Positions 30,665-53,630 of a DNA stretch of 64,000 nt are shown here, one piece after another. Position numbers and translations under genes: made by a program. Source of the DNA: Vicinamibacteria bacterium (GTDB lineage: Bacteria > Acidobacteriota > Vicinamibacteria > Vicinamibacterales > UBA8438). A model generated the notes under the pieces. It did not search any database. It was not told the origin of the DNA and worked only from the letters and a program-made list of their open reading frames with translations. The DNA lies in assembly GCA_022820675.1 (NCBI GenBank), contig JAJEFC010000015.1:1-64000 (forward strand). Reading direction: 5' to 3'. How positions within the stretch are numbered: the stretch's first letter is position 1; each line of letters begins with the position of its first letter.

Positions 30665-30692
30665 GACGGATGGGTGGCGGAAACCGAACGGT
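30665..30692 (-). promoter_or_regulatory. Bipartite 28-bp element, copy a
   Basis: Reads ACCGTTCGGT-N10-CATCCGTC on the minus strand, directed at the M4 protease gene 250 bp downstream and just past the 3' end of the kinase gene. One of seven copies with an identical 10-bp spacer. Confidence 0.6.
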
Positions 30693-30706
30693 GGGGAGCA
30701 GAAAAT

Positions 30707-32956
30707 CTACGCGTCGCCCGCAACTGCGCCGCGAAGGGCCTCGGCGAACGCAGGTGCCGTCGGCGGGCGGTCCCGTCGCGGGGCGGACAGCACGGACATC
30801 GCCAAGGCGGCGGCCGCGTGAGTGGCGAGATCCAGCGGCCGGCCGGCGGGGCGGACGCGGCGTCGTCGTATCCGTTGCGTCACCTCGTCGGCGTCGTCGC
30901 CGGCGAAAGGATGCTCACCGGAGACCATCTCGTAGAGCACCACGGCCAGCGACCAGACGTCGTCGGCCTCTTCGGCCGGCCGGCCGGAGAGAATCTCGGG
31001 CGATGCGTAGCGGAGCGTGCCGCCCACGACCCCACCGCCGTTCGCCTCGCGGGCCAGGCCGAAGTCCAGCAGCTTCGGCGAGCCGCCGGCCGTGAAGCCG
31101 ATGTTGCTCGGCTTGATGTCCCCGTGCAGGTACCCGGCATCGTGCAGCGCCGCGAGGGCGCCGGCCAACGCCTCGGCAATCGAGAGCGCCTCGGGGGCCG
31201 GCAACGGACCGCGTCGCAGCCGGTCGGCCAGCGTCCCGCCGGCCAGGTACTCGACGACGAGGAACGGCCGGCCCCGCCAGGACTCGATGCCGTGGATCTG
31301 GGCGACCGCCGGATGCGCGACCTCCGCCATCGCCCACGCTTCCGGCTTGAGTCCCATCAGACCCGGAACGGACAGGCCCGTCAGCGTCTTGACCGCCACG
31401 TTGCGCTCGAGCCGGAGGTCTCGCGCCAGGTACGCCGCCCCCATCCCCCCGGCCCCCAAGAGACGCGTCAACCGGAACTTGCCGGCGAGGGTCTTCGGGA
31501 CCTCCGATTCGACGTACGGGGACCCGCAGCCGCAGGCGGGCGCCTGGGCCGCCTCGACGACGCACCCGCACACGGGGCACTCGTCCGCGGTCGCCTCCTC
31601 CGGCGACGGGTCTTCCGCCGGGCGCATCATGCGCAGCCGTCCCAGGGCCAGCCCCGCGGCCGCGCCGAGCCCCTCGAGGAAGTGCAGGTCGGCGGGCCGC
31701 ACGAGCCGGTCGTCGAACCGGCGGCCGACGACCAGCGCCCCGATCAGCTCGCCCCCCGGACCGGGCACCGGCACGACGGCGTCGGCCGCGGTCTCGACCA
31801 CCCACGCCGCCTCGTCCCGGGGCAGCACCTCGAAGAGCGAGGACGGGTCCGCCGGATGGACGCGCAACGTCCCCCCGGCCGACTCCAGCATGTGGACGAT
31901 GGCCGACGTGCGTCGCAGGCGTGTGCCTGCGGCGTCAGGCGCCCGCAGGGCCGAGAGGTGCGGGCCGGGGTCGATTGCGGCCACGAGCACGGCGGGTGAC
32001 CCGCAGCCGCGCTTGACCGCCCGGGTCACCGCCCGGCTGACCGTCTTGATGCTTCCGGCGTACGCCAGCGCCGCCGCCGCGTTGGCCAGGGCCCGCTTCT
32101 GGTCCGTCGCCTCCGGGTGCGTCCAGGCGTCGAGACGGCGCAGGAGCCGCTCCCGGCCGAGGGCGGCGAGCAGCAGGATGCCGGCCGCGGCGAACAGCGA
32201 CCGTGCCAGCGGGTCCGCGGCCAGCGCGCCCACCGTGCGCTCCGGACGGCTCGCCGCCAGCCAGCCCAGGCCCAGGACCGGTGCGGCCACTGCCGCCTGC
32301 AGCAGGCCGGGCCGCGTCAGCAGCCATCTGTAGCAGGCCCGCACCACCTCCCGGACGTGGGGCACCCGCACCGCGAGCACCGAGTACCACAGCAGGGCCA
32401 TTCCCGGGAAACGCATCACCTCGAGCACGAGCACGGTCGGCGACCACTGGTAGTTGGCTATCCAGAACCCCGGCGTGAGCGCCTGGGCGAGGTCGTACGC
32501 CGTGGCCAGCCCGACGTGCATCAGGAACCCGGCGCTGAACAGCACGACCCGCCGCATCTCCTCGGCCGAGGCCGTGTGCGCGCGCAGCGCGACGACGACC
32601 ACCGCCGCCAGCTCCAGCAGGTCCAGGGCGACGACCGACCCGTCGAAGACGAGAGGGACCAGCGCCTCCAGATGGCCCGCTTGCCCGAGCTGGAGCGTCA
32701 CCGCGCCCGCAGCCCAGAGCGCGAAGCCGGCCGCTACGCAAACCGGGGCCATGCGGCGGGCGAGGTCGTCGAGCCGGGCTCGGCGATGGAGCCGCGGGCA
32801 CTCACGGGCGAACAGCCACAGGAACGCCGGCGCGAACACGAACGAGGGTAGGTACAGGTAGAGGAAGAGCCTGCCCGATGCGGGCGGGTCCAGGAGGAAG
32901 GCCGAGAGCTGCGCGGGCGGCGGCATTTCCAGGAAGAACGCCGGGAGCATGTACAT
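30707..32956 (-). CDS. Transmembrane Ser/Thr protein kinase, C-terminal part after an amber codon
   Basis: 749 residues from the first ATG after the interruption, but the same frame is open from 33121, so this is the main part of one gene whose start lies at 33412. It has about seven membrane helices to residue 270, a GAF-like sensory domain (about 290-440), a zinc-ribbon (CPVCG...CGCG), then the kinase: Gly-loop LGAGGMGAAY, Lys in VAVKTL, catalytic loop LHGDIKPSN (HGD rather than HRD), and LLDFGLA. It should phosphorylate targets in response to a signal seen by the membrane or GAF part. The sigma factor gene lies upstream on the same strand; ECF sigma factors paired with such kinases are known. 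Confidence 0.8.
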   Translation of the reverse strand: MYMLPAFFLEMPPPAQLSAFLLDPPASGRLFLYLYLPSFVFAPAFLWLFARECPRLHRRARLDDLARRMAPVCVAAGFALWAAGAVTLQLGQAGHLEALVPLVFDGSVVALDLLELAAVVVVALRAHTASAEEMRRVVLFSAGFLMHVGLATAYDLAQALTPGFWIANYQWSPTVLVLEVMRFPGMALLWYSVLAVRVPHVREVVRACYRWLLTRPGLLQAAVAAPVLGLGWLAASRPERTVGALAADPLARSLFAAAGILLLAALGRERLLRRLDAWTHPEATDQKRALANAAAALAYAGSIKTVSRAVTRAVKRGCGSPAVLVAAIDPGPHLSALRAPDAAGTRLRRTSAIVHMLESAGGTLRVHPADPSSLFEVLPRDEAAWVVETAADAVVPVPGPGGELIGALVVGRRFDDRLVRPADLHFLEGLGAAAGLALGRLRMMRPAEDPSPEEATADECPVCGCVVEAAQAPACGCGSPYVESEVPKTLAGKFRLTRLLGAGGMGAAYLARDLRLERNVAVKTLTGLSVPGLMGLKPEAWAMAEVAHPAVAQIHGIESWRGRPFLVVEYLAGGTLADRLRRGPLPAPEALSIAEALAGALAALHDAGYLHGDIKPSNIGFTAGGSPKLLDFGLAREANGGGVVGGTLRYASPEILSGRPAEEADDVWSLAVVLYEMVSGEHPFAGDDADEVTQRIRRRRVRPAGRPLDLATHAAAALAMSVLSAPRRDRPPTAPAFAEALRGAVAGDA

Positions 32957-33121
32957 CGGCGGGAGCGTGGCCTTGAGCAGGTAATAGACCCCCAGCAGCC
33001 GGGTCCGCCGGTCGCGGCGCCCGACGGACAGCAGCAGGCAGGCGCTCGCCGAATGGCCGAGGAGCTTGATGGCGAAGTAGATGCCGAGCTCGCCATGCTC
33101 CCGCTGATAGTCTCCCCAGGC

Positions 33122-33412
33122 CTACGGCAGCAGCAGCAGCGTCGCGGCTACCTCCACGACGGCGAGGGCGATGAGGACCTGCGAGGCGCGGCGGCCGAAG
33201 GCGCCGCCGAGAGTGGCGGCGCCGGCCGCCGCCTCACCCGCCGGCTCGCGGCCGGTGACGGCCGGGGCGAGGGCGCGGAGGTTGGCGAGGGCGCGGCGGT
33301 TGGCGGGTGTGGCCAGCTCTTCGCACCGCTCCCACTGAACCTCCTGGTCCCGCGTGAGGGCGTCGGCCACCTCGACGACGACATCGTCACGATCTTCGCT
33401 GTTGGCCGACAT
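33122..33412 (-). CDS. N-terminal piece of the same kinase, ended by TAG
   Basis: 96 residues from the ATG at 33412 (GGAG seven bases upstream; another ATG at 33430). A soluble helical part (WERCEELATPANRRALANLR) leads into a membrane helix (VLIALAVVEVAATLLLLP) and then TAG at 33122-33124. The frame continues without shift into AWGDYQREHGELGIYFAIKL and the kinase. In the duplicate at 52640-52863 the same position is TGG within CCGTGGGCCTGGGGAG, so Trp was probably changed to stop here. Read alone it could be mistaken for an anti-sigma factor. Whether the halves work as two proteins is unknown. Confidence 0.65.
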   Translation of the reverse strand: MSANSEDRDDVVVEVADALTRDQEVQWERCEELATPANRRALANLRALAPAVTGREPAGEAAAGAATLGGAFGRRASQVLIALAVVEVAATLLLLP

Positions 33413-33508
33413 ACCGTTGCTCCGCTTCATCGAGGTTCCCGTCGCATCGAGTTCGACCAAGCCTCCGTCGCGCTCCTCATCCAATGAACGCGTCAGTCAC
33501 GGGATCAA

Positions 33509-33536
33509 GACGGATGAACCGCGAGAACCGAACGGT
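33509..33536 (-). promoter_or_regulatory. Bipartite 28-bp element, copy b
   Basis: ACCGTTCGGT-N10-CATCCGTC on the minus strand, between the sigma factor stop (33650) and the kinase start (33412), about 97 bp before the start codon. It would give the kinase its own promoter inside the cassette. Confidence 0.6.
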
Positions 33537-33649
33537 GGGACGAGCGGGAGAGCGAGAGGCTGCTTCGTGGCGCCCGGGAGTCGCGAGGGCCGGCGCGGCC
33601 GGCCGATCTGCACCGGCAGGTGGGCAGCGCGCCGCCGGCTGGCGGTGGG

Positions 33650-34273
33650 TCATGCCTCCGGCATGACGCTGCTCAACCGCACCAGCGCGCGCCGGAGCGC
33701 CATGCGCGCCGCGTCCGGTGACGACAGTCGCTCGAGCAGGGCCAGTTGCCGGAAGCTGTAGCCGCACTCGACGCGGCCGACGACCAGGCGCCGGTGGCGC
33801 GGCGTCAACTGCTTCAGGCCTTCCAGGTAGCGCTCCCACGACTCGTCGTCGAGAACCTGCCGAAGCTGCGGCGCCGCCTCGTCGGACAGCAGGAGCGGCT
33901 GACTCGGCTCGATCACGCTCTGGCGGAGAATCGCCCGCCGCAGGTGGTCGCCTATCCGGTTCTGGACGGCCCGCCGCAGGTAGATGCGCATCGCCGTGCC
34001 GTGCGCCGACCGGAAGCTCGATACCCGCGCGAGCGTGCGGTGCAGGGCGTCCTGGACCAGATCGCTGGTGTCCACCCCGTCGCGGGCCCAGACCGGCAGC
34101 CGGTCCCGTGCCCAGCGCCGGAGCCACGGCGCATGACGCGTGAGCAGTGCGCCGAGGGCGGATCGACTGCCCCGCCGGACGCGCTCCAGCAGGCGCTGTT
34201 CGGAACCCGAATTGTCCGGACTGGGCTCGCCCGGATCCTGCCGCGACGGTGAGACGCGTGCCGATCGCACCAC
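33650..34273 (-). CDS. ECF-type RNA polymerase sigma factor, copy 1
   Basis: 207 residues. Region 2 is seen in LLTRHAPWLRRWARDRLPVW and GVDTSDLVQDALHRTLARV; region 4 helix-turn-helix in LTPRHRRLVVGRVECGYSFR and QLALLERLSSPDAARMALRR. The start is uncertain: GTG 34273 aligns with a GTG in copy 2, while the frame is open to a TTG at 34309. No anti-sigma gene follows; a transmembrane kinase does, suggesting control by phosphorylation as known for kinase-linked ECF groups. Copy 2 at 52864 is nearly identical through the core. Element c precedes it, element b follows it. Confidence 0.88.
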   Translation of the reverse strand: MVRSARVSPSRQDPGEPSPDNSGSEQRLLERVRRGSRSALGALLTRHAPWLRRWARDRLPVWARDGVDTSDLVQDALHRTLARVSSFRSAHGTAMRIYLRRAVQNRIGDHLRRAILRQSVIEPSQPLLLSDEAAPQLRQVLDDESWERYLEGLKQLTPRHRRLVVGRVECGYSFRQLALLERLSSPDAARMALRRALVRLSSVMPEA

Positions 34274-34357
34274 ACGTCTATCATGCCTGGAAGCGCATCG
34301 TCTCGCCAAGGAGCCGTCGGAGAACCGACGCGCAGCTCAACTTTTTTTCCGGCCAAG

Positions 34358-34385
34358 ACCGTTCGGTTTTCGGTCCTCATCCGTC
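34358..34385 (+). promoter_or_regulatory. Bipartite 28-bp element, copy c
   Basis: ACCGTTCGGT-N10-CATCCGTC on the plus strand, 85 bp upstream of and divergent from sigma copy 1. Read rightward it faces the permease-prefix fragment and, farther on, the barrel gene at 35302. An A-rich tract (TTTTTTT on the plus strand, 34342-34348) lies between it and the sigma gene, as at copies d and g. Confidence 0.55.
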
Positions 34386-34539
34386 TTAACAGTCGTTCGA
34401 TGCAGGCGCTTGCACGGTGGCCTGTACGGCCGGCGGGTGACCGGGTAGCGCCCAGGGTAGCGCCCCCAAGGTCGGCGCCATCCCTCGGTACGCGGTGACG
34501 ATCGGCAGGTGCCGGCCGCGCGGCGGACCCCATCACGAT

Positions 34540-34791
34540 GAGGTCATGTTTTCGCAGCTGAGCTCCTTTGTAATGACGTGCGTTTTTCGTGATCGCTTCG
34601 AGGACTCGCTGGAAGAGGAGGTGCGCTTTCACCTCGACGCTCAGGCGCAGGATCTGGTCCGCGTCGGGGTGCCGCCGGCGGAGGCGGCGCGCCGCGTGCG
34701 GGCGCAGTTTGGCAGCATCGAAGCCATGAAGGACGAATGCCTGCAGGCGCGCGGCCTGCGGAGTCACCGACGGCGGTATCCGACCGGATGA
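34540..34791 (+). pseudogene. Orphan N-terminal prefix of an acidobacterial ADOP/FtsX-like permease
   Basis: About 80 residues (FRDRFEDSLEEEVRFHLDAQ, VPPAEAARRVRAQFGSIEAM, KDECLQARGL) match the cytoplasmic prefix that precedes the first membrane helix in acidobacterial orphan macrolide-exporter-like permeases. The frame ends at 34791 with no membrane part following, so the permease itself is missing. A second such fragment is at 43953-44130. The flanks to 35001 hold nothing else. Confidence 0.6.
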
Positions 34792-35001
34792 CGAGGTGTC
34801 TGTCCGAAGGGGGGCTGCTGGAGCGGCCCGCGGGTGAGCGAGGGCGACGGGGCAGCGCACGCCGAGGAGCTGCCCGGGTGCCGCTCAAGGCCCCGGCAAC
34901 CGGCCCGACCCCCGCAGACCCGGCCGGTGGTTCCAGCGTCCACGTAAACGCGGAATTCCTCAGGTTCGCCGACTTCACGCGCCGCGGTTACGCCAGGATT
35001 C

Positions 35002-35301: not shown

Positions 35302-36252
35302 ATGGAATCGATACGTTTGCTTCGTTCGTCGTTGCGCAACGGCTTCGCTGGCGCCGTGGGACTCTGCGTCCTGAGCGCCGCCCCCAGCGCCGCCCAGGAA
35401 AACCGGGCTGGATGGTACGTCGGCCTCGAGCTGGGGGTGGCGCTCGCGTCCAGCGTCGACTCGTCAGTCAGCGGCGTCAGCCACCCGACGCGGTGCGACC
35501 GGCTGCTCTATCCGGTCTCCATCAGCCCGCCGGACGACGCGGCGTGTCGCGATACCTCGGCGGCGGTGCTGTTCGCCAACGAGTTCGACCCGGACCTTGG
35601 GCCTGTGAGCGGCTTCACCTTCGGCTACGCGGCCGGCGGGCCGCGGTTCGAGGTGGAGTACCTCAACCGCTACCAGGGCGACGACATTCAACCGCTCGGC
35701 GGCACGGAGAGCGTGGCCCTGGCCGGCAAGAACAGCGAATGGGCCACCACCGCGCCGCTCGAGGAGTGGATCGGCGAGCACCATGCGCAGCAGTTCTTCG
35801 CCAACGCGTACTACGACTTCATGAACGGGTCGTCCTGGACGCCGTACGTCGGTGCCGGAATCGGCTGGGCCCGCACCGAGCTGAGCTACTACATCCAGCT
35901 CACCCGCAAGCCCGATGCCGAGTACCTGGAGATCGAATTCGACCCCGACTGGCCCGACGCCGCTAAGCGCGCCGCCGCCGGCACGGTCAGCATCCTCGAC
36001 GCCCCGGCCGGCCAGACCGTCTTCGGTTTCCAGGTGCTGGCCGGCCTCGACTACGCGCTGACCGAGCGCACGTTTCTCGGCGGGAAAATGCGCTTGACGC
36101 GTTTCGACGACATCGCCGAGGAGGTCACGTGGCTCCAGATCCGCAGCCACAGGCCGGTCCGGGCGGACGGGGTGACCCCGGCTGGGAGCACGCTGGCTTT
36201 CGGCGGCATCGGCTACAAGGCGGTGACCCTCACCCTGAAGTACCGCTTCTGA
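35302..36252 (+). CDS. Outer-membrane beta-barrel protein
   Basis: 316 residues from the ATG at 35302. A signal peptide ends near APSAAQ. Amphipathic strands alternate with acidic loops (AGWYVGLELGVALASS, GPRFEVEYLNRYQGDD, WTPYVGAGIGWARTELSYY, TLAFGGIGYKAVTLTLKYRF), ending in Phe, as in porin-like OMP barrels of 8-12 strands. Two cysteines lie in an N-terminal loop. The stop shares one base with the start of the next gene (TGATG), so the two are translationally coupled. The specific substrate is unknown. Confidence 0.8.
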   Translation: MESIRLLRSSLRNGFAGAVGLCVLSAAPSAAQENRAGWYVGLELGVALASSVDSSVSGVSHPTRCDRLLYPVSISPPDDAACRDTSAAVLFANEFDPDLGPVSGFTFGYAAGGPRFEVEYLNRYQGDDIQPLGGTESVALAGKNSEWATTAPLEEWIGEHHAQQFFANAYYDFMNGSSWTPYVGAGIGWARTELSYYIQLTRKPDAEYLEIEFDPDWPDAAKRAAAGTVSILDAPAGQTVFGFQVLAGLDYALTERTFLGGKMRLTRFDDIAEEVTWLQIRSHRPVRADGVTPAGSTLAFGGIGYKAVTLTLKYRF

Positions 36253-37271
36253 TGGACCGCAAGGCCCGTCGATCGAGCGTGTCCGTGCATGCAGCCGTCG
36301 CCGTGGCCGCTGCGCTGGGCGTGACCGTCTCGGCGCAGAGCGTGCCGAGGACTCCATGGGGCGATCCCGACCTGCAAGGAATCTGGGTCGCCTCGACCCT
36401 CACGCCGCTCGAACGACCGTCCGAGTACCAGGGACGGGAGTTCCTGACGGACGGGGAGATCACGGCGCTCGAGACCGCGGCCCTCGCCGAGGAGGAACGC
36501 CGACTGAATCGGCCGCCGGAGCGGGCGCCGGCGGGGGGGGACGTCGACTACTGGCCCGACGGGAGCCTCGGCGCCGACGCCTTCTGGTTCGACGAAGGCG
36601 CCGCCTGGGTGCCGAGCGGGCGCACGTCGCTGATCGTCGAGCCGGCGGACGGCCGAATACCCTATACGCCCACCGCGCGTGACCGCGAACGGCCGTACGG
36701 CACCGGCCCCTGGGATTCGCACCTCGACCTCGACACGGGCGAGCGGTGCCTCAGTGACGGGCTGTCGCAGGTATGGTTCGGCGATAACCCCAACCACCAG
36801 ATCTTCCAGACGCCGACCGACGTGGTGATTGTGCATGAGATGTACCGGCAGCGCCGGATCATCCCGATCGACGGCCGCCCGCGGACCGGCATCGCGCAGT
36901 TGAACGGCGAGGCTCGCGGCCGGTGGGAAGGGAGCACGCTGGTGGTCGAAAGCCGCCACTTCCCCGATCGGGCGGCAGACCGGTTTCGCCACGTCTGGCG
37001 CGCGCCCACGGCGAGCCTGCACTTGGTCGAGCGGTTCACGCGGGTCGACGCCGCGACGATCGACTACGAGGCCACGATCGCCGACCCGACCCGCTTCGCC
37101 CGGTCGTGGACCGTCCGCTTTCCTTTGTCCGCGGACGCGGCGGCACAGGGGGTGAAGCCGGGCCCTCTCTTCGAGTTCGCCTGCCACGAGGGGAACTACG
37201 CGCTCCCGAACGTGCTGCGGGGTGCTCGCGCACAGGAAGCGAGGGCCGGCAGTTCCGCTGGCCGTGAGTAG
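36252..37271 (+). CDS. Exported protein of unknown function, PWGDPDLQGIW family, copy 1
   Basis: 339 residues. A weak signal peptide (VHAAVAVAAALGVTVSAQ) precedes the family signature VPRTPWGDPDLQGIW and conserved blocks SGRTSLIVEPADGRIPYTP, GLSQVWFGDNPNHQIFQTP and VVIVHEMYRQRRIIPIDGRP. I know the signature as frequent in acidobacterial exported proteins but not its function. No catalytic motif is evident; the aromatic and His-rich middle could bind a small ligand. It overlaps the barrel gene upstream by one base. A full-length paralogue of identical length is at 54919, and a truncated copy at 35002. Confidence 0.8.
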   Translation: MDRKARRSSVSVHAAVAVAAALGVTVSAQSVPRTPWGDPDLQGIWVASTLTPLERPSEYQGREFLTDGEITALETAALAEEERRLNRPPERAPAGGDVDYWPDGSLGADAFWFDEGAAWVPSGRTSLIVEPADGRIPYTPTARDRERPYGTGPWDSHLDLDTGERCLSDGLSQVWFGDNPNHQIFQTPTDVVIVHEMYRQRRIIPIDGRPRTGIAQLNGEARGRWEGSTLVVESRHFPDRAADRFRHVWRAPTASLHLVERFTRVDAATIDYEATIADPTRFARSWTVRFPLSADAAAQGVKPGPLFEFACHEGNYALPNVLRGARAQEARAGSSAGRE

Positions 37272-37305: not shown

Positions 37306-39417
37306 GTGACGCACGCGATAGGGTTCACCGCACAGCGGTTCGCGATGGTAGCTGCTGCGGCGGTCGCCCTCTCGTGTGGCGCCGCCCAGGCGCAACCTCG
37401 CGTGACCTTCTCGCGCGTCACCACGGAGCCCGGCGTTGGTCGGTTCGACTTCGTGCTCGCGGTCGCCGATCTGAACCGCGATGGCCGGGACGACATCGTC
37501 GTCGGAGGGCGCGACGAGCATGCCGTCGGAGCGACACCCGAGGACCGGTTCCGGAAGACGCCGCTCCACGTGTTCGTCAGCACGGGGGACGGCGGCTTCA
37601 AACCCGCCCCGGAGCTGGTCGAGGAGACGATCGAGGCGCGCAACCCGGTCGTGGTCGCGGACGACTTCAACGGCGACGGCCGGGACGACCTCGCGATCTT
37701 CGACGCCGGGGCCTACGTGGACGCGCACAGCCTGGGGTACGGCAGTCCGCCGCAGCTGTTCCTGAGTCATGACGACGGCGTGTTCCGGCCGTCGCTCGCG
37801 CTCGCCGATGCGGTCGAACGAGAGCACGAACGGGATCCGCCCGTCCCGCCTGCCTCCGGCCCCGCCGACCTCCATCTGAAGACGGCGACATCCGGCGACA
37901 TCGACGGCGACGGCGACATCGACCTGTGGGTCGAGAGCGGCGGCGGCGCCAACGTCGACAGCCACCTGATGGTGAACAACGGGGACGGCACCTTCGCGGT
38001 GGACTCCTCCAGCAACCACCAGCGGCTGGAGGCGGACTTCCTGCCGCCGCTCAACGCCTACGGGCGCTTCCACCTGGGGCACTTCGCCGACCTGGACAAC
38101 GACGGCGACCTCGACCTCGTGCTCGGCCAGATCCGGGACCCGGATCGCGTCACCCAGTTCAGCATGGTGCTGGTGAACGACGGCACCGGCCACTACCCGG
38201 TGCGAATCGAGCTGCCGCATCCGGCGTTCAACGACGGCTTGACGCGGGTCTTCGGCGTGGCCGGCTTCGACATCGACGGAGACGGACTCCGGGATCTCCT
38301 GCTCACGCACACGCGCAACAGCCCGGACGGGGGATGGAGCGGGCGCTACGTGCAGGTGCTGGCCAACCGCGGCGGGTCGTCGTTCGCCGACGAGACCGCC
38401 GCCCGGATGGGCGACCAGAGCGCGACGACGCCGGAACGCAGGGCGGACGACGGCGAGAACCTGAACCTGGCCGAGGCGGAGATGCACGACGTCGACCGCG
38501 ACGGTTGCGCGGATCTGGTCATGTCGCGGGGCCGGTCGCCGGTGGCCGTCGAGGCGCCGCTCGTCTACCGCAACGACGGCAGCGGCCGGTTTCGGGCGAT
38601 GCCGCCAGAACCGTTCGCAGGCTCGGACCGCGACTTCGGGTACTTCGCCGTGCCTATGCACGCGGACGACGATCGAGTGATCGACTTCGTGGTCCCGCAA
38701 CACCACAACGGGCCTGACGGCAACTACGGGACGGACGACGACTTCACGACGCTGGTGACGCTGGTGAACACCACGCCCGCCGGCCCCATCCGCTGCGCCG
38801 ACCCGGCGAACCGGCCGCCGACGCCGACAGAGGCCCTGCCGGACCGGGCTCTGGCCCCGAGCCGCACGCTGAACGTGAACGTGTCACGGGGGTTCGTCGA
38901 CCCCGACGGCGACGCGCTGAGCTACACAGCGTCGTCGTCGGCCCCGCAGGTGGTGACGGCGCGTGCCGCGGGGGCCGTGGTGACGTTGACGGCAGGCGGC
39001 GAGGGTGCGGCGACGATCCGGGTGACGGCGACCGACCCGGGCGGTCTGAGTGCGACGCAGTCGTTCACTGTGACGGTGTCGACGACAGTGTCGGAATCCT
39101 TCACCGACGACCCGCTGCAGCCCGGCGTGACGCCGGTCATGGCGGTCCACTTCACGGAGCTGCGGACGCGCATAGACGCCCTGCGAAGAGCGGTGGGGCT
39201 GCGGGCGTTCCCTTGGACGGATTCGGTGTTGCGGGCACGGGTGACGCGGGTCCGGGTCGTGCACCTGCTGGAGCTGCGGGAGGCCCTGGTGGCCGCCTAT
39301 CGGGCGGCCGGGCGGTCGGCGCCGGGCTGGAGCGATCCCGCGTCGTCCGCGGGGCCGGTCCCGATCAGGGCGGTGCACCTGATGGAGCTGCGCCGGGCGG
39401 TGCTGGCGCTCGAGTGA
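37306..39417 (+). CDS. Exported FG-GAP/VCBS repeat protein with cadherin-like domain and C-terminal ELR module
   Basis: 703 residues from a GTG at 37306 with GGAGG upstream. A signal peptide ends near CGAAQAQ. Several FG-GAP/VCBS repeats with calcium-binding-like loops follow (DLNRDGRDDIVV, DFNGDGRDDLAI, DIDGDGDIDLWV, DLDNDGDLDLVL, DIDGDGLRDLLL), forming a beta-propeller of integrin type. A dystroglycan/cadherin-like Ig domain follows (about 515-595; FVDPDGDALSYTASS), then the 105-residue module (39100-39414; FTDDPLQPG... to LALE). A surface or secreted binding protein is inferred. It is 34 bp after the previous gene and may be in the same operon. Confidence 0.85.
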   Translation: MTHAIGFTAQRFAMVAAAAVALSCGAAQAQPRVTFSRVTTEPGVGRFDFVLAVADLNRDGRDDIVVGGRDEHAVGATPEDRFRKTPLHVFVSTGDGGFKPAPELVEETIEARNPVVVADDFNGDGRDDLAIFDAGAYVDAHSLGYGSPPQLFLSHDDGVFRPSLALADAVEREHERDPPVPPASGPADLHLKTATSGDIDGDGDIDLWVESGGGANVDSHLMVNNGDGTFAVDSSSNHQRLEADFLPPLNAYGRFHLGHFADLDNDGDLDLVLGQIRDPDRVTQFSMVLVNDGTGHYPVRIELPHPAFNDGLTRVFGVAGFDIDGDGLRDLLLTHTRNSPDGGWSGRYVQVLANRGGSSFADETAARMGDQSATTPERRADDGENLNLAEAEMHDVDRDGCADLVMSRGRSPVAVEAPLVYRNDGSGRFRAMPPEPFAGSDRDFGYFAVPMHADDDRVIDFVVPQHHNGPDGNYGTDDDFTTLVTLVNTTPAGPIRCADPANRPPTPTEALPDRALAPSRTLNVNVSRGFVDPDGDALSYTASSSAPQVVTARAAGAVVTLTAGGEGAATIRVTATDPGGLSATQSFTVTVSTTVSESFTDDPLQPGVTPVMAVHFTELRTRIDALRRAVGLRAFPWTDSVLRARVTRVRVVHLLELREALVAAYRAAGRSAPGWSDPASSAGPVPIRAVHLMELRRAVLALE

Positions 39418-39531: not shown

Positions 39532-41306
39532 ATGCGTGAGGCTGCTGCCGCGCTCGTAGCTGTTGCCATCGCCGCAGGCGACCACGCTGCGGCTCAGATC
39601 CTGAGCCGCACCTCGCCGCCGGCGGCAGCCGCACTTCAGGCGGCGGACTGGACCGACCATCCCATCCGTCCCGGCGTGACGTCGATCAAGGCGGTCCATT
39701 TCGACGAGTTGCGTGCGCGGGTCGCGGGACTTCGAGCCCGCGAGGGACTGGCGCCCGTACGGTGGACGGACCCGGTTCTGACACCTAGGGCAACCATGAT
39801 CACGCGGGCCCACCTCGCGGAGCTGCGCGCCGCGCTCCGTGGCGTGTACGAGGCGAGGGAACAGTTGCAGCCAGCCTACACGGACCGCACGCTGACCGCG
39901 GGCCGCACCCCCATCAGGGCCGCCCACGTCATGGAGTTGCGCGAGGCGGTCGAGATCCTCGAACGCTCCGCCCCGTCGCTTGAGCCGTACTACACGATGC
40001 TCCCGATCGACGTCATCGACCCGAGCTACCGGCCTCAAGGTCACAGCTCCGCGTCCGCGGATCTGGACGGTGACGGTAACGAGGACATCGTCGTCCTCGG
40101 TGCCACCTGGCCGGATCCGGAGCGTGGCGTGACGGCGGCGAGCTACCGCCCGCAACCCGGACGGGTCTTCCTGGGCGACGGCGACGGCGGGTTCCGGCGG
40201 GCCCCGGCCGAGCTGTTCCCGGTCGACACGCTGAACACCGTCCACCCACGGAAGGCGCCCTTCGGCGACCTGAACGGCGACGGGCGGCCGGACATGTTCA
40301 TCGCCGGGCACGGCTGGGACACCGAGCCGTTCCCCGGAGAGCAGAACCGCCTGTACCTGTCGCAGCCCGGGGGCGGTTGGCGCGACGCGACCGGCGAGCT
40401 GCCGCAGCTCTCCGACTTTTCGCACTCGGCCGCGATCGGCGACATCCGCGGCCTGGGGACGCCCGACATCCTCGTCGGCAACATCTGGGGAGCGAACCGG
40501 ATTCTGCCCTACGTGCTTCTGAACGAAGGCGCCGAGACGTTCTCGCTCGACCGGTCGAACCTGCCGGTCGGTCCCGGCGAGACCCTGAACTTCCTCTCCA
40601 GAGGCCTCGCCATCACCGGGACGGTGCTGACGGACCTCGACGGCGACGGGCTGCCGGAGCTGATCGCGCTCGGCGAGGGCCATGAGGGCCATCCCGGCAT
40701 CGAGGCGGTCTCGTCCGTCTTCTGGAACCGCACGGGCGCCTCAGCGAGCAGCACAAGACGTCGCTGCCATCGCCGGAGGTGTTCGCCCACGGACACATCG
40801 ATCTCGACGCCGCCGCGCTCGATGCGGACGGAGACGGCCGGCTCGACCTGGTCGTCGTCGGGACCCAGTTGAACCCCTTCTACGACGGCTGGTTCGTCCA
40901 ACTGCTGATGAACCGGGGCGACGGTACGTTCGCCGACGAGACTGCCCTCCGGTTGCAGCCGCACGAGCAGTCGAGCGGCAACGCGGGCGTGGCGACCGGT
41001 GCGCCGTGGGTGGTGTGGGTGGATATTCTCGACTTCAACGGCGACGGGGCGGCGGACTTCCGGATGACCCCGACGGGAGCCGGAGAGCTGCCGCCGAACC
41101 AGCCGCTGATCTGGCTGAACGACGGCAGCGGGGGGTTCTCGGCGCTCAAGGTGCATGATTTCGTCCGCCCCGGCTACGAGTGGCTGCTGTTTGGTGCGCG
41201 TCTCGTGAGGACACGGAACGGCTACAGCTACATCAACATGCAGTCCTACCCTGGCAGCGGTGGGCTCATCCTGACGGGGCTGCTGGCGACCCGGCCATAC
41301 CGCTAG
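39532..41306 (+). pseudogene. FG-GAP protein with N-terminal ELR module, copy 1, one frameshift
   Basis: The ATG at 39532 follows a strong GAGGAGGAG site. Signal peptide, then the 105-residue module (39649-39963), then FG-GAP repeats (DLDGDGNEDIVV, DLNGDGRPDMFI, DLDGDGLPELIA). At about 40740 one base is missing compared with the intact copy at 49356-51107 (GCCTCAGCGAG here, GCCTTCCGCGAG there). The original frame then continues to 41306 with EVFAHGHIDLDAAALDADGD and the shared C terminus LLATRPYR. It would otherwise be about 590 residues. A sequencing error is possible, but several neighbours are also broken. Confidence 0.8.
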
Positions 41307-41308
41307 CA

Positions 41309-41440
41309 GGCGCTGCTCGGAATCCGGACCGTCAGGGTTGCGTCCCCGATTGTCAGGACCTGGGTCCGCTCGTCCGCCGCGACACCGAGACGCTTGCTGG
41401 CCGCACCACCACGCTCATCATGCCGGAAGCGCGCCGGCCC
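41309..41440 (-). pseudogene. Relic of the 5' end of an ECF sigma factor gene
   Basis: Matches the start region of sigma copy 2 (53400-53529), including ATGATGAGCGTGGTGGTGCG and the stretch encoding RPASVSVSRR, then breaks into stops. With element d it forms the upstream portion of a lost sigma cassette, joined directly to the end of the FG-GAP pseudogene. Confidence 0.65.
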
Positions 41441-41490: not shown

Positions 41491-41518
41491 ACCGTTCGGT
41501 CCTGCGTGCTCATCCGTC
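41491..41518 (+). promoter_or_regulatory. Bipartite 28-bp element, copy d
   Basis: ACCGTTCGGT-N10-CATCCGTC on the plus strand next to the sigma relic, with a T-tract (TTTTTT) just before it as at copies c and g. Read rightward it points to the M4 pseudogene, 520 bp away. Confidence 0.55.
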
Positions 41519-46585: not shown

Positions 46586-48517
46586 TCAGCGAAGTTCGTC
46601 GAGTCTCTCCCGGGCAGCGTCGTGCCCCTGTTCGGCGGCCAAGCCGTACCATTTGGCTGCTTCCACGCGGTCCCGCCGCACGCCGCGGCCCTGTTCGTAT
46701 CTGCGGCCGAGAGCGTACTGGGCTGTGGCGTGTCCCCGTTCGGCGGCGCGGCGGTACCACCGAACGGCTTCCTCTTCGTCTTGCCGCACCCCGCGGCCGT
46801 TCGCGTACATGAAGCCCAGGTTGTACTGGCCGTTGACGTGTCCCTGTTCGGCGGCGCGGCGGTACCAGCGCACAGCCTCGCCATCATCCCGGCGTACACC
46901 GCGGCCGCTCGCGTACATGACGCCGAGGTTGTACTGGCCGCGGGGGTGTCCTTGTTCGGCGGCGCGGCGGTACCACCGGACGGCTTCCTCTTGGTCTTGC
47001 CGGACTCCGCGGCCGATGGCGTACATGAAGCCCAGGTTGGCCTGCCCAAGGGCGTCTCCCTGGTCCGCCGCGCGGCGGTACCAATGGGCGGCTTCCTCAT
47101 CGTCGCGCGGTACGGCGCGGCCGTTCCAGTACATCCAAGCCAGGCTGGTCTGCCCGAAGGCGTTTCCGTGCTCGGCGGCGCGGCGGTACCATCGGGCAGC
47201 GGCCTGCTCGTCACGCAGTACGCCGCGGCCGTTGAGGTACATCCAACCGAGGTTGGCCTGTGCAGGGGCGTAACCCTGCTCAGCGGCCCGGCGGAACCAC
47301 GTCGCAGCCTCGTCGTAGTCTTGCTCCAATCCGCGCCCTTCGCGGTACATGACGCCGAGGTTGCCTTGGCCGCGGGGGTCGCCTTGTTCAGCCGCAAGCC
47401 GGAACCAGGACGCCGCGACGGCATCGTCCTCCCGCACCCCACGGCCGGTCTCGTACAGGTAGCCGATGGCCGCCTGAGCGGGCCCGTAGCCCTGCTCGGC
47501 CGCAAGCCGGAACCACGTCACCGCGACGCCGTAGTCCTGCCCTACCCCGCGCCCGTCCTCGTAGCGCTCGCCGAGCTCGGTCTGGGCCTCGGCGTTACCC
47601 CGCTCCGCCAGCTGCCGGAGCCGGCCGGCATCCAGGTCGCCAACGTCCACATCGGCGGCGGCGGTGGTGGCCGGTGGCAGGGCGTCGACCTCGGCCACGA
47701 CGGCCGGCAATGCCGCCGCGACCGTCAGCGCCTCTGCTGTCGGCGGCACGCTCAGGTAGTGCTCGCCCACCAACGACTGGTACTCGTGCGGGCGCTGCTG
47801 GCCGTTCGTCGACGCCAGCACCTGGGCGCGAACACGGCGGAACAGAAGGCCGATCTCCAGCGGCTGCTCGAGGTGCGCCAGCAGCGCCGCCGTGTATGGG
47901 CTGTTCCGGCCTCGGCCGTCCGCCGCCGTCGTCCCCGCCGCCGCCGCCGCATACGCCACCAGCGTCTCGTCGCCCAGCAGAGACTCGTTCAAGTCCCCGA
48001 AGCTGCCCCCGCTCACGCTCCGGCTGGCCAGGGTCCGCTGCATCGACCGCGCCAGCGGGTTGTTGCGGCAGGCGTCCAGGATCACCAGCCGCAGGGACGC
48101 GCCCAGCGTCGACGCCAGCATGTCGTCGACCGTCACCGTCTCGTAGCGGACGTCCAGGTCCCGCTCGAGACGCGCGTCCACGGGGACCAGGTAGTTGGCG
48201 CCGTCCATCTCGATGCCGTGGCCGGCGTAGAACACCAGCGCGATGTCTGCCCCCAGGCTGCGGCGCGTGAAGGCCCGGAGCGCCTCGGTCAGCTCCACGC
48301 GGTCGGCATCCAGCTCGGTGGTCACGTCGAAGCCGAGCCGCCGCAGGGCCGCGGACATGTCCACGGCGTCGTTCTCCGCGTTCGGGAGCGGGCCGATGTG
48401 AGCGTAGGTGCTGTTGCCGACGACGAGGGCCACCTGGCCGTCGGCGAGCACGACCGCCGGGGCCGTGAGCACGACAACCGCCGCGACGGCCACAACGAAC
48501 GACCTGAGAGCTATCAT
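46586..48517 (-). CDS. Exported caspase-like peptidase (C14) with Sel1 repeats
   Basis: 643 residues. The ATG at 48517 is chosen because GGAG lies nine bases upstream; the ATG at 48526 overlaps that site. Signal peptide (VVAVAAVVVLTAPAVVLA), then a caspase/metacaspase domain, residues about 20-250, with the catalytic His in FYAGHGIEMDG and Cys in LVILDACRNNPL. A short linker leads to nine Sel1 repeats of 36 residues (each with a GRGV-like turn) to the C terminus. Such proteins are thought to act in signalling or controlled proteolysis, with the Sel1 array binding partners. Element e and a decayed sigma/kinase cassette lie just upstream. Confidence 0.9.
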   Translation of the reverse strand: MIALRSFVVAVAAVVVLTAPAVVLADGQVALVVGNSTYAHIGPLPNAENDAVDMSAALRRLGFDVTTELDADRVELTEALRAFTRRSLGADIALVFYAGHGIEMDGANYLVPVDARLERDLDVRYETVTVDDMLASTLGASLRLVILDACRNNPLARSMQRTLASRSVSGGSFGDLNESLLGDETLVAYAAAAAGTTAADGRGRNSPYTAALLAHLEQPLEIGLLFRRVRAQVLASTNGQQRPHEYQSLVGEHYLSVPPTAEALTVAAALPAVVAEVDALPPATTAAADVDVGDLDAGRLRQLAERGNAEAQTELGERYEDGRGVGQDYGVAVTWFRLAAEQGYGPAQAAIGYLYETGRGVREDDAVAASWFRLAAEQGDPRGQGNLGVMYREGRGLEQDYDEAATWFRRAAEQGYAPAQANLGWMYLNGRGVLRDEQAAARWYRRAAEHGNAFGQTSLAWMYWNGRAVPRDDEEAAHWYRRAADQGDALGQANLGFMYAIGRGVRQDQEEAVRWYRRAAEQGHPRGQYNLGVMYASGRGVRRDDGEAVRWYRRAAEQGHVNGQYNLGFMYANGRGVRQDEEEAVRWYRRAAERGHATAQYALGRRYEQGRGVRRDRVEAAKWYGLAAEQGHDAARERLDELR

Positions 48518-48602
48518 GGCGTTCATCTCCGTCTCGGTCCGGGCGTCAGGCCGTGGCCGGCGTTGCCCCCGCGCACCGGACCGTCGCTTTCAACCATCTA
48601 GA

Positions 48603-48630
48603 GACGGATGGACGCTGGAAACCGAACGGT
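48603..48630 (-). promoter_or_regulatory. Bipartite 28-bp element, copy e
   Basis: ACCGTTCGGT-N10-CATCCGTC on the minus strand, 86 bp before the start of the caspase-Sel1 gene and directly after a relic of the kinase 3' end. Same order as kinase end, element a, M4 gene at 30.7 kb. Confidence 0.65.
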
Positions 48631-49355: not shown

Positions 49356-51107
49356 CTAGCGGTATGGTCGGGTCGCCAGGAGCCCCGTCAGGATCAGCCC
49401 GCCACTGCCCGGGTACGACTGCGTGGCGATGTAGCTGTAGCCGTGCCGCGTCCTCACGAGGGGTGCATCGAGGATCAGCCACTCGTAGCCGGGGCGGACG
49501 AAGTCGTGCACCTTGAGCGCCGAGAATCCCCCGCTGCCGTCGTTCAGCCAGACGAGCGGCTGGTTCGGTCGCAGGTCTCCGGCCGTCGGGGTCATCACGA
49601 AGTCCGCCGCCCCGTCGCCGTTGAAGTCGAGGACATCCACCCAGAACGCCCATGGCGCCTGGGTCGCCACCCTCGCGTTGCCGCTCGATTGCTCGTGCGG
49701 CTGCAGCCGGCGGGCAGTCTCGTCGACGAACGTGCCGTCGCCCCGGTTCATCAACAGTTGGACGAACCAGCCGTCGTAGAAGGGGTTCATTTGGGTCCCG
49801 ACGACGACCAGGTCGAGCCGGCCGTCGCCGTCCGCATCGAGCGTGGCGGCATCGAGACCGATGTGCCCGTGGGCGAACACCTCCGGCGACGGCAGGGGCG
49901 TCTTGTGCTGCTCGCGGAAGGCGCCAGCACGGTTCCAGAAGACGAACGAACCCGCGAGCCCGGGATACCCCTCTCCGACCGCGATCAGTTCCGGCAGCCC
50001 GTCGCCGTCGAGGTCCGTCAGCACCGTCCCCGTGATGGCGACGCCCCTGCGATCGTAGTTCAGGGTCTCGTCAGGGCCGACCGGCAGGTTCGACCGGTCG
50101 AGCGAGAACGTCTCGTCGCCGTGGTTCAGAAGCACGTAGGGCAGAACGAGGTGTTCTCCCCAGATGTTGCCGACGAGGATGTCGGGCGTCCCCAGGCCCC
50201 GGATGTCGCCGATCGCCGCCGAGTGCGAGAAGTCGGAGAGCCGCGGCAGCTCGCTTGTCGCGTCGCGCCAGCCGCCCCCGGGGCGCGACAGGTACAGGCG
50301 GTTCTGCTCCCCGGGGAACGGGTCGGTGTCCCAGCCGTGCCCGGCGATGAACATGTCCGGCAGCCCGTCGCCGTTCAGGTCGCCGAAGGGCGCCTTCCTC
50401 GGGCCGACGGTGTTCAGCGTGTCGACCGGGAACAGCTCGGCCGGCGCCCGCCTGAACCCGCCGTCGCCGTCGCCCAGGAAGACCCGTCCGGGTTGCGGGC
50501 GGTAGTTCGTCGCCGTGACGTCGCTCGTTGGATAGGTGTAGCCCAAGAGGACGAGGTCCTCGTTCCCGTCGCCGTCGAGATCCGTCGACGCGGAGTTGTG
50601 ACCATGAGGCCGGTAGCTCGGGTCGATGACCTCGATCGGGAGCATCGTGTAGTACGGCTCCAGCGACGGGGCGGGGTTCTCAAGGACTTCGACCGCCTCG
50701 CGCAGCTCCATGACGTGGGCGGCTCTGACGGGGGTGTGGCCTGTCAGGGTGCGATCCGTGTAGGCCGGCTGCAGCTGCCCCCTCGCGTCGTACACGCCAC
50801 GGAGCGCGGCGCGCAGTTCCGCGAGGTGGGCCCGCGTGATCATGGTTGCCCCGGGTGTCAGAACCGGGTCCGTCCACCGTACGGGCGCCAGTCCCTCACG
50901 GGCTCGAAGTCCCGCGACCCGCGCACGCAGCTCGTCGAAATGGACCGCCTTGATCGACGTCACGCCGGGACGGATGGGATGGTCGGTCCATCCCGCCGCC
51001 TGCAGTGCGACCGCCGGCGGCTGCGAGGCGCGGCTCAGGATCTGAGCCGCAACGTCGTCGGCCGAGACGATGGCAACAGCTACGAACGCGGTAGCAGCCC
51101 CACGCAT
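49356..51107 (-). CDS. Exported FG-GAP repeat protein with N-terminal ELR module, copy 2 (intact)
   Basis: 583 residues; the ATG at 51107 has a perfect AAAGGAGG site. Signal peptide (to about ADDVAAQ), then the three-repeat module at 50679-50990 (third repeat one residue short), then FG-GAP/VCBS propeller repeats with Ca-like loops (DLDGDGNEDLVL, DLNGDGLPDMFI, DLDGDGLPELIA, DADGDGRLDLVV, DFNGDGAADFVM). It is the unbroken paralogue of 39532-41306, in opposite orientation, sharing even the leader sequence (CCCAGACACGACGTCAGAA). A surface binding role is inferred. Element f lies about 180 bp upstream. Confidence 0.88.
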   Translation of the reverse strand: MRGAATAFVAVAIVSADDVAAQILSRASQPPAVALQAAGWTDHPIRPGVTSIKAVHFDELRARVAGLRAREGLAPVRWTDPVLTPGATMITRAHLAELRAALRGVYDARGQLQPAYTDRTLTGHTPVRAAHVMELREAVEVLENPAPSLEPYYTMLPIEVIDPSYRPHGHNSASTDLDGDGNEDLVLLGYTYPTSDVTATNYRPQPGRVFLGDGDGGFRRAPAELFPVDTLNTVGPRKAPFGDLNGDGLPDMFIAGHGWDTDPFPGEQNRLYLSRPGGGWRDATSELPRLSDFSHSAAIGDIRGLGTPDILVGNIWGEHLVLPYVLLNHGDETFSLDRSNLPVGPDETLNYDRRGVAITGTVLTDLDGDGLPELIAVGEGYPGLAGSFVFWNRAGAFREQHKTPLPSPEVFAHGHIGLDAATLDADGDGRLDLVVVGTQMNPFYDGWFVQLLMNRGDGTFVDETARRLQPHEQSSGNARVATQAPWAFWVDVLDFNGDGAADFVMTPTAGDLRPNQPLVWLNDGSGGFSALKVHDFVRPGYEWLILDAPLVRTRHGYSYIATQSYPGSGGLILTGLLATRPYR

Positions 51108-51184
51108 TGGTCCTCCTTTCTGACGTCGTGTCTGGGGAATGATCGCGACTACCCGCCGTCAATCACGGTTCCCAGGCCCTCCAA

Positions 51185-51245
51185 GGGCCGCCACGGAGTT
51201 CGCTCCAGCCCGGCGACGACCGCCCCGCCGCCCGATAGGCGGCCA
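51185..51245 (-). pseudogene. Fragment of an ELR module
   Basis: The minus strand reads VAAYRAAGRSSPGWSE, the same as the end of repeat 2 and start of repeat 3 in the module at 39100-39414, followed by the same intergenic bases (GGGCCTGG-AACCGTGATTG) that precede the FG-GAP gene at 39532. It shows that this locus was copied together with the end of the preceding gene. Confidence 0.6.
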
Positions 51246-51288
51246 CCACGGGTCACCGTGCAAGCGTCTGCACCGAGCAGTTGTTCAA

Positions 51289-51316
51289 GACGGATGAGCA
51301 CCGGAAACCGAACGGT
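51289..51316 (-). promoter_or_regulatory. Bipartite 28-bp element, copy f
   Basis: ACCGTTCGGT-N10-CATCCGTC on the minus strand, directed at the intact FG-GAP gene 182 bp away, and divergent from a plus-strand sigma 5' relic. Confidence 0.6.
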
Positions 51317-51325
51317 CTTGGCAGG

Positions 51326-51480
51326 GAGAGTTGAGTTGCGCGTCCGTTCTCGAAGGGCTCCTTGGCGAGCCGCTGCGCTTCCAGACATGATTGACGTGTC
51401 ATGCGGTCGGCATGCGTCTCACCGTCGCGGCAGGATCCGAGCGGGCCCCGTCCTGACGGCGTCCTCGCCGTTCGGGGTCC
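51326..51480 (+). pseudogene. Relic of the 5' end of an ECF sigma factor gene
   Basis: After element f the plus strand follows the leader and start of sigma copy 1 (GCTCCTTGGCGAG, CTGCGCTTCCAGACATGATT, CGTCTCACCGTCGCGGCAGG) to about 51480, then is lost. Opposite orientation to the sigma genes at 33650 and 52864. Confidence 0.6.
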
Positions 51481-51504
51481 ACTTGCCCTTCGGTTCGGTC
51501 ACCA

Positions 51505-51610
51505 GCGACACATCCGCTCCACCGCTCTGGCGTGTGAACGCGCGCAGCGCCTCGGTCAGCTCCACGCGGTCGGCGTCGAGCTCGGGTGGTCACCTCGAAG
51601 ACGTCGTCAC
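51505..51610 (-). pseudogene. Fragment of a caspase-Sel1 gene
   Basis: Matches the caspase-domain segment at 48240-48340 (GCGCCTCGGTCAGCTCCACG, CGGTCGGC), encoding ELDADRVELTEALRAFTR, with a one-base insertion. Nothing else of the gene remains. Confidence 0.6.
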
Positions 51611-51651
51611 TGGTGTCGAGCGGGGGTGCCGGTCGGGGACGTCTAGCCGGG

Positions 51652-51709
51652 GAACATCGGGTTCACGGCCGGCGGGTCGCCAAAGCTGCTGAACTTCGGC
51701 TTGGCGCAC
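51652..51709 (+). pseudogene. Fragment of the Ser/Thr kinase gene
   Basis: Reads NIGFTAGGSPKLLNFGLA, the activation-loop region of the kinase at 30707 (NIGFTAGGSPKLLDFGLA) with the DFG Asp changed to Asn. Fewer than 60 bp survive, fused to the Ig/ELR remnant that follows. Confidence 0.65.
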
Positions 51710-52110
51710 AGGTGACAGTGACGGCGACCGACGTCAGGGGCTCGAACACGCCGACGGCCCAATCGTTCGCGGTGACGGTGCTGCTGCGGCCGTTTACCGA
51801 CTATCCCATCGTGCCCGGCGAGACGCGGGTCAGGGCGGTCCACTTCACCGAGCTGCGGACGCGCATCGACGCCCTGCGGGCGGAGGCGGGGCTGGGACGG
51901 TTCACGTGGACGGACCCGGTCCTGCGGGTGGGGGTGACGCAAGTCAGGCTCGTGCACCTGATGGAGCTGCGGTCGGCGGTTGCTGCGGCGTACCGAGCGG
52001 CGGGGCGGTCGACACCGCCGTGGACGGATGTGGAGCCGGTGGCGGGAACAACCCCGATCCGGGCGGCGCACCTGATGGAGCTGCGCGCCGCGGTGGTGGC
52101 GTTGGAATAG
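51710..52110 (+). pseudogene. C-terminal remnant: end of an Ig domain plus a complete ELR module
   Basis: The last strands of a cadherin-like domain (TVTATDVRGSNTPTAQSFAV) lead into an intact 105-residue module (51793-52107; FTDYPIVPGETRVRAVHF to VVALE). The N-terminal part of the gene is missing and replaced by a kinase fragment, so no signal peptide or sensible start exists. Confidence 0.65.
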
Positions 52111-52639
52111 GGGGTCTGGGCTCGACGACGGCCGGCCTGCGACGGACCGCAGAAATCGATGCGGCCGCTGCTCCGGAACCAGCACACTCCGCCTGCCAAC
52201 TTTCGACGAGATGCCAGCCGAGGGGCCGCCGGGGCGAGCCGACCGCGCTTGAGGATGCACCACGGTGGAGGACATTGGCGAGATCTTCGTGCGGCTGGTG
52301 AACGTGGACCTGGGGTTCGCCCCCGGGAACGTCGCGACCCTCCAGGCGTTCTACTATGCCGACGACGGCACCGGCGTCGAGGCCACCCCGAACTTCTACA
52401 GCGACACCCTCGTACGGTCCGTGCCCCGAGAGGCAGCCGGCGGGCTGGTTCCGAAGCCCTGGGGGCGTTACGTGAGTCCGCCATCGCCGTAGCCGGCGCG
52501 TGGGCAAGATCCGACTGACTCGTCGTCAGCGAGATCCTCCCGCTGGACCCCCGCTTGTAGCCGTCCGGGGGGGGCGAAAGCACGTTGTAACCCCCGTGCT
52601 GGTAGTGCTGGTACGGCTGTGCACAGCCGTTGATGGTCT
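52111..52639. other. Region of gene fragments, no intact gene
   Basis: A 75-codon plus-strand frame at 52265-52492 (FVRLVNVDLGFAPGNVATLQ, YYADDGTGVEATPNFYSDTL) looks protein-like but has no recognised family and may be a fragment of an exported protein. The rest shows nothing definite. Confidence 0.35.
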
Positions 52640-52863
52640 CCCCAGGCCCACGGCAGCAGCAGCGTCGCGGCGATCCACCACGGCGAGGGCGATGAGGGCC
52701 TGCGAGGCGCGGCGCCCGAAGACGCCGCCGAGAGTGTCGGCGCCGCCGGCCGACGGCGCCTCTCCCGCCGGCTGGCTGCCGGTGACGGCCGGGGCGAGGG
52801 CGCGGAGGTTGGCGAGGGCGCGGAGGTTGGCGGGTGTGGCCAGCTCTTCGCGCCGCTCCCACG
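52640..52863 (-). pseudogene. N-terminal fragment of a second transmembrane kinase gene
   Basis: Directly after the sigma stop, the sequence resumes at TWERREELATPANLRALANL, corresponding to residues about 30-100 of the kinase at 33412. It runs to the first membrane helix (FGRRASQALIALAVV) before a 2-bp deletion and loss of similarity. It preserves TGG where the first copy has TAG. Element b and the kinase start are missing between sigma and this fragment. Confidence 0.7.
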
Positions 52864-53529
52864 TCAGCGGGGTTGTGTATCCGCCATGACGTTGCTCAGC
52901 CGCACCAGCGCGCGCCGGAGCGCCATGCGCGCCGCGTCCGGTGACGACAGTCGCTCGAGCAGGGCCAGCTGCCGGAAGCTGTAGCCGCACTCGATGCGGC
53001 CGACGACCAGCCGCCGGTGGCGCGGCGTCAACTGCTTCAGGCCTTCCAGGTAGCGCTCCCACGTCTCGTCGTCGAGAACCTGCCGAAGCTGCGGCCCCGC
53101 CTCGTCGGACAGCAGGAGCGGCTGGCTCGGCTCGATCACGCTCTGACGGAGAATCGCCCGCCGCAGGTGGTCGCCTATCCGGTTCTGGACGGCCCGCCGC
53201 AGGTAGATGCGCATCGCCGTGCTGTGCGCCGACCGGAAGCTCGACACCCGCGCGAGCGTGCGGTGCAGGGCGTCCTGGACCAGATCGCTGGTGTCCACCC
53301 CGTCGCGGGCCCAGACTGGCAGCCGGCCCCGCGCCCAGCGCCGGAGCCACGACGCGTGACGCGTGAGCAGCGCGCCGAGGGCGGATCGACTGCCCCGCCG
53401 GACGCGAGCCAGCAGGCGCTGCTCGGAATCTGAACCGTCAGGGTTGCGTCCCCGGTTGTCAGGACCGCTGGGTCCGCTCGCCTGCGGCGACACCGAGACG
53501 TTTGCCGGTCGCACCACCACCCCTATCAT
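52864..53529 (-). CDS. ECF-type RNA polymerase sigma factor, copy 2
   Basis: 221 residues from the ATG at 53529; the frame is also open to an ATG inside element g (53625). Regions 2 and 4 are intact and nearly identical to copy 1 (GVDTSDLVQDALHRTLARV; LTPRHRRLVVGRIECGYSFR). The C terminus differs (NVMADTQPR) because the gene is joined to a kinase fragment by deletion. It could still direct transcription but lacks its kinase partner. Its upstream side holds the T-tract and element g, as in copy 1. Confidence 0.85.
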   Translation of the reverse strand: MIGVVVRPANVSVSPQASGPSGPDNRGRNPDGSDSEQRLLARVRRGSRSALGALLTRHASWLRRWARGRLPVWARDGVDTSDLVQDALHRTLARVSSFRSAHSTAMRIYLRRAVQNRIGDHLRRAILRQSVIEPSQPLLLSDEAGPQLRQVLDDETWERYLEGLKQLTPRHRRLVVGRIECGYSFRQLALLERLSSPDAARMALRRALVRLSNVMADTQPR

Positions 53530-53602
53530 GCTGGAAGCGCGGCGGCCCGCCAAGGGTTTGCCTGAAGACGACCGCGCGCAGCTCAACTTTTTTTCCTGCC
53601 GA

Positions 53603-53630
53603 ACCGTTCGGTCTCCGGTGCTCATCCGTC
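53603..53630 (+). promoter_or_regulatory. Bipartite 28-bp element, copy g
   Basis: ACCGTTCGGT-N10-CATCCGTC on the plus strand, divergent from sigma copy 2 and 74 bp upstream of its ATG, with TTTTTTT at 53588-53594. Read rightward it faces the cupin gene at 54297. Confidence 0.55.

Follow-up and report, generated by a model that had tools for sequence, protein, structure and literature searches.

The window, a 64-kb stretch of Vicinamibacteria DNA, contains seven exact copies of a two-box element, ACCGTTCGGT-N10-CATCCGTC (shuffled expectation 0.00). With a probability of about 0.9, as judged from sequence comparison, this element is the promoter of an ECF sigma factor linked to a Ser/Thr kinase. 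The initial annotation took it for the recognition site of one resident ECF sigma factor. The promoter reading is supported, but several paralogous sigma-kinase pairs, which form a family, take the place of the single sigma factor, and the element of the window is best seen, as a refinement of that reading, as one dialect of the family's promoters. Kinase-linked ECF systems are already known; what is new in this one is a -35 box with no AAC and a -10 code that is specific to each sigma clade. The sites and their counterparts in sister sigma-kinase pairs sketch a probable circuit, not described before, that controls genes for exported proteins. No published description of a promoter with this sequence was found in the open-licence papers searched.

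The coordinates and strands assigned to the seven copies were reproduced by an exact pattern search, as was the identity of both boxes in all of them with a varying spacer. No extra site was found in the window at up to 3 mismatches (shuffled expectation 0.10). The genome-wide search for the two boxes that the initial annotation had proposed retrieved 12 exact copies from the 6.55-Mb genome (441 contigs), versus none for the reversed control pattern. Allowing up to 3 mismatches added five matches (one at 2 mismatches, four at 3); they look like chance occurrences, none of them convincing. The 10-bp spacer, initially described as fixed, is present in all seven copies of the window, but four copies with the same boxes and an 11-bp spacer exist elsewhere in the genome (C30:805, C31:6419, C271:5804, C431:21294). 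The relaxed patterns CGTTCGGT-N13-15-CGTC and TGTTCGGTT-N13-CG had 20 and 10 genomic matches, respectively, versus none for the controls; only a part of these matches are genuine. They include the second-box variants CAAACGTC, CGGACGTC, GAACGCC and GACGTT, situated before genes. The idea of a universal 18-bp core was dropped, as other subgroups differ; the 10-bp spacer and the exact 18-bp core are a variant of one subgroup only.

The window contains two ECF sigma factor genes. Gene B (52864..53529, minus strand) is intact and encodes 221 amino acids (Sigma70_r2, E 9e-9; sigma70-ECF superfamily, 45.0 bits at a cut-off of 42.9). Gene A (33650..34273, minus strand) is 89% identical to B; its start was read from the sequence and needs to be GTG, as a 1-base difference follows the ATG that serves as the start of B. 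Gene A precedes a gene for a membrane Ser/Thr kinase (30707..33411, minus strand; Pkinase, 1.7e-37) with an in-frame TAG at 33122-33124. The TAG falls in the membrane part of the kinase, at a Trp of its relatives, and points to a pseudogene or an assembly error; on contig C141, the main kinase segment (residues 1-748) is matched without interruption. Regions 2 and 4 are the only conserved sigma domains, and the profile aligns over both to solved ECF sigma factors. The DTSD motif of region 2.2 is invariant in both family alignments. It takes the place of the DAED-like motifs of ECF sigma factors and stands opposite the D..D region of CnrH in the alignment. The best NCBIfam match of the sigma factor is the Planctomycetes sigma family TIGR02984, at 53 bits versus a cut-off of 183.75 and over region 2 only. 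Sigma fragments were also detected, namely N-terminal ones at 41301..41421 (minus strand; tblastn and blastn) and a 5'-region relic at 51260..51457 (plus strand; blastn, 84% to the sigma A region), the latter including one of the seven sites. These and the kinase, M4 and caspase fragments at 41-53 kb are duplication relics.

All seven sites of the window are intergenic, and the sites lie off transposon ends; matches scattered inside genes or at such ends elsewhere in the genome had been named initially as what would speak against a promoter. The direction of the sites agrees with the downstream genes. The sites occupy fixed places of a sigma-kinase cassette or its relics, in three independent contexts. 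Four copies are divergent from a sigma gene, 34358..34385 (plus strand, gene A) and 53603..53630 (plus strand, gene B), or from a sigma relic, 41491..41518 (plus strand) and 51289..51316 (minus strand), as had been noted before; the same context occurs at C30, C31 and C431. One copy, 33509..33536 (minus strand), lies in the sigma-kinase gap about 97 bp upstream of the kinase gene. This position also holds a site in paralogous cassettes, and a variant at C431. Two copies lie where the kinase gene, or a relic of it, ends. The site at 30665..30692 (minus strand) is 14 bp after the kinase stop and 249 bp upstream of the M4 protease gene; the one at 48603..48630 (minus strand), where the kinase relic was recognized by reading the flanks, is followed by the caspase-Sel1 gene. 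The kinase-3'-end context as a whole is also represented at C94 and C141, and probably at C30 and C431.

Predicted targets in the window are the kinase gene and three genes for proteins with N-terminal hydrophobic signals, all on the minus strand: the M4 metalloprotease (28547..30415; Peptidase_M4 and M4_C), a protein with a caspase domain and Sel1 repeats (46586..48526; Peptidase_C14 4e-36, Sel1 2e-96) and an FG-GAP repeat protein (49356..51107; FG-GAP_3 6.5e-34). The last of these lies 181 bp downstream of the 51289 site. This distance and those for the M4 and kinase genes agree approximately with the initial annotation, whereas the caspase-Sel1 gene is 76 bp downstream of its site instead of 86 bp. 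The targets of the remaining three sites are distant, broken or doubtful. The 34358 site is followed by a relic ORF and then, about 0.95 kb off, by an OMP gene, a doubtful target; the 41491 site faces an M4 protease gene whose frame is broken, at about 540 bp; for the 53603 site, the nearest co-directional gene is a cupin gene 666 bp away, and the assignment is uncertain. Sites outside the window face DUF481, PG-binding/FGE, LRR-linked and TonB-receptor-like genes. Many of the predicted targets have an N-terminal hydrophobic segment. The predicted regulon combines the kinase with proteins that are mostly exported (M4 protease, caspase-Sel1, FG-GAP, LRR, PG-binding/FGE).

In loci L104, L105 and L118, sites with the 11-bp spacer precede genes for a family of small exported proteins (TVIWTGEVRVEKW and similar; no Pfam match), and these are followed by LRR proteins. 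A repeat-like domain of about 105 amino acids (DHPIRPGVTSIKAVHFDELRARV and similar; no Pfam name seen) recurs in an M28 peptidase, the FG-GAP protein and other exported proteins, at 26494-26808, 38971-39414, 39649-39963, 50679-50990 and 51664-52107. A 339-aa exported protein (PRTPWGDPDLQGIW) is encoded in two copies, 36252-37271 and 54919-55938; the copy scanned (36129-37271) had no Pfam match.

The proposed promoter has a -35 core GT[TC]CGG in all sites. Canonical ECF promoters contain AAC in the -35 box and CGT in the -10 box, although AAC is no longer considered defining (PMC8103513). The candidate promoters resemble them in the CGT-type -10 box of most sites and in rigid spacing. However, they differ in the -35 core GTTCGGT without the typical AAC and in the CGCC -10 box used by one paralog clade. 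The stretch of 14 nucleotides that follows the -10 box has an A+T content of about 60% in DNA of 70% G+C, versus about 30% further out; this A+T-rich stretch was found independently in the subgroup sites and in the set of paralogous sites. A T-rich tract upstream of box 1 was considered as a general UP-like part. Its A+T content (-25 to -15) is 58% in subgroup A and 34% in the paralog set, and thus the tract is counted as a subgroup-A feature only. A promoter on the reverse strand was rejected, as it has no -10-like box and its direction is wrong for the kinase and caspase genes.

Sigma paralogs, about 50-61% identical, occur throughout the family, most of them with a kinase gene beside them. 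Twenty paralog loci were selected by sigma similarity irrespective of the motif, sigma and kinase coding matches were masked out, and the rest was searched with GT[TC]CGG[TA]T-gap-CG[TC][CT] at gaps 8 to 21. There are 20 matches at gap 13, corresponding to GTTC-N17-CG, versus 0-4 at any other gap. This sharp peak supports the ECF-like 17-bp geometry of GTTC and CGTC proposed for the window. Most of the paralog-locus sites lie in the sigma-kinase gap or directly after the kinase gene; some loci (e.g. L077, L087) have no site under this pattern. In an independent record encoding a 65% identical sigma factor, the predicted element CCGTTCGTTTCCCGCCGTTCATGCGTC is present in the sigma-kinase gap.

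The -10 box is CGTC or CGTT in most sites and CGCC in one clade. Within a locus, its final two bases (TC, CC or TT) agree in 11 of the 12 pairs of sites (p 0.00095 by permutation, somewhat optimistic as the loci are related). On the sigma tree, the three -10 classes require two changes, which is the minimum, versus an average of 8.5 in shuffles, a difference to which near-copies contribute. The exceptions are L074, with two sites of differing -10 variants in one locus, and the C431 cassette, with two -10/spacer types. The motif, its positions and this covariation with the sigma clade are direct readings of the sequence. Protein clustering at 19 cassette loci found the kinase in 18, the sigma factor in 16 and the next family in 4. 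No anti-sigma factor or other linked regulator is conserved across these loci; sigma and kinase are the sole conserved neighbours, and thus no such regulator is linked.

Among 193 genomes of the class, 4 contain the exact motif, each of them a member of the family of the window's genome, and 189 do not. Matches with 1-2 mismatches in relatives (G016, G021 and G023 among others) were treated as chance. A subgroup-A sigma factor (64-100% identical) is encoded in three of the four motif-bearing genomes; in the fourth, G001, a motif site is present and the subgroup-A sigma was not found in the assembly. The sigma relatives come from records named Acidobacteria, Vicinamibacteria and Vicinamibacteraceae. 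One further record (L134), filed as Caldilineales (Chloroflexota), has a close relative of the sigma-kinase cassette, which suggests transfer or a misbinned contig.

Could the boxes be identical simply because they were duplicated recently and have not yet diverged? Indeed, the four sigma-divergent sites of the window have flanks 74-88% identical (blastn), and thus they are not four independent observations. However, the spacer has changed among the duplicated copies and the boxes never have. Moreover, the boxes are kept across contexts whose flanks are at background identity: in 100 site pairs of the window's genome with both flanks less than 40% identical, the flanks average 29% and 27% identity and the spacer 61%, while box 1 reaches 89% and box 2 83%. 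Finally, the orthologous caspase gene of a second genome of the genus is preceded by the same site, with both boxes and the bases after them preserved. Since the boxes are kept amid unrelated flanks and in this second genome, they are held by constraint, and recent duplication as the sole cause is very unlikely. The duplicated, decayed modules in which the region is rich, with sites at module edges, might also suggest that the element is an end or target of a mobile element or recombinase and that its copies mark duplication or insertion boundaries. It is extremely improbable that this is so: the boxes are not mutual inverted repeats, no recombinase is conserved in linkage and the variants covary with the sigma clade. 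An IS21-type element (L146 467-3576; G000:C284) lies about 40 bp after a CGTT-type site, but G001 lacks the insertion at the homologous locus (L145), showing that the IS inserted downstream of the site.

A further possibility is an operator of a transcription factor unrelated to sigma. Box 1 is near-palindromic (ACCG-TT-CGGT), and 18 fixed bases exceed the need of most ECF promoters. However, sigma and kinase are conserved beside the sites to the exclusion of any other regulator. The CG[TC][CT] box, the 17-bp spacing, the single direction towards genes, the A+T-rich stretch and the covariation with the sigma clade are all traits of a promoter, and we consider an operator improbable.

If the element is the promoter of the kinase-linked sigma factor, GTTCGGT would be the -35 box contacted by sigma region 4 and C..CGTC the -10 box contacted by region 2. 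GTTC and CG are 17 bp apart, and transcripts would begin within the A+T-rich stretch right after the -10 box. The ancestral cassette may have had three promoters, one divergent from sigma, one before the kinase gene and one between the kinase gene and a target gene, which duplication and decay would then have spread through this genome. Sigma binding, the start sites and kinase control are what we infer from this arrangement. A signal at the membrane kinase would activate the sigma factor, probably by phosphorylation, and the active sigma would boost transcription of the kinase gene and of a set of mostly exported proteins. As there is a site before the kinase gene and none directed into sigma, the positive feedback would run through the kinase.

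This arrangement is similar to ECF43, where a Hanks-type kinase phosphorylates a Thr in region 2.2 and thereby provides the charge for RNA polymerase binding, as in EcfP/PknT of Vibrio parahaemolyticus and EcfK/PknS of Xanthomonas citri (PMC8999054, PMC13147305). In both cases the sigma gene is beside a membrane Ser/Thr kinase gene and no anti-sigma factor is linked. However, region 2.2 of ECF43 is QTTA or STTA, whereas DTSD keeps both acidic residues, and thus the ECF43 mechanism is not directly transferable. Activation of sigma by the kinase, established in ECF43, is here a hypothesis, as is phosphorylation at the T or S of DTSD. The targets differ as well, being T6SS or polymyxin resistance genes in ECF43 and mostly exported proteins in our predictions. 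Other kinase-linked ECF groups, proposed in the current ECF classification (PMC8999054), likewise have a Ser/Thr kinase in place of an anti-sigma factor and, as here, a DAED-like motif with Ser/Thr in or near it.

For this largely uncultured class, the promoter code of a kinase-linked ECF family becomes readable, and therefore regulons become predictable from sequence alone. The paralogous sigma-kinase pairs with distinct -10 boxes, some of them encoded together in one genome, offer natural material for studying how region 2 reads the -10 box. Eukaryote-like repeat proteins are reported to abound in sponge-associated Acidobacteriota (PMC8163846), and the record names of relatives hint at a possible sponge origin of this genome. 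It is conceivable, though rather doubtful, that Vicinamibacteria have parallel insulated sigma-kinase circuits, each with its own -10 code and a positive loop through its kinase gene, in which phosphorylated DTSD switches on the export of eukaryote-like proteins in response to a host or predator. The exported, eukaryote-like nature of the predicted targets, taken with the published observations on sponge-associated Acidobacteriota, would single the circuit out as a candidate for controlling contact with a host or predator.
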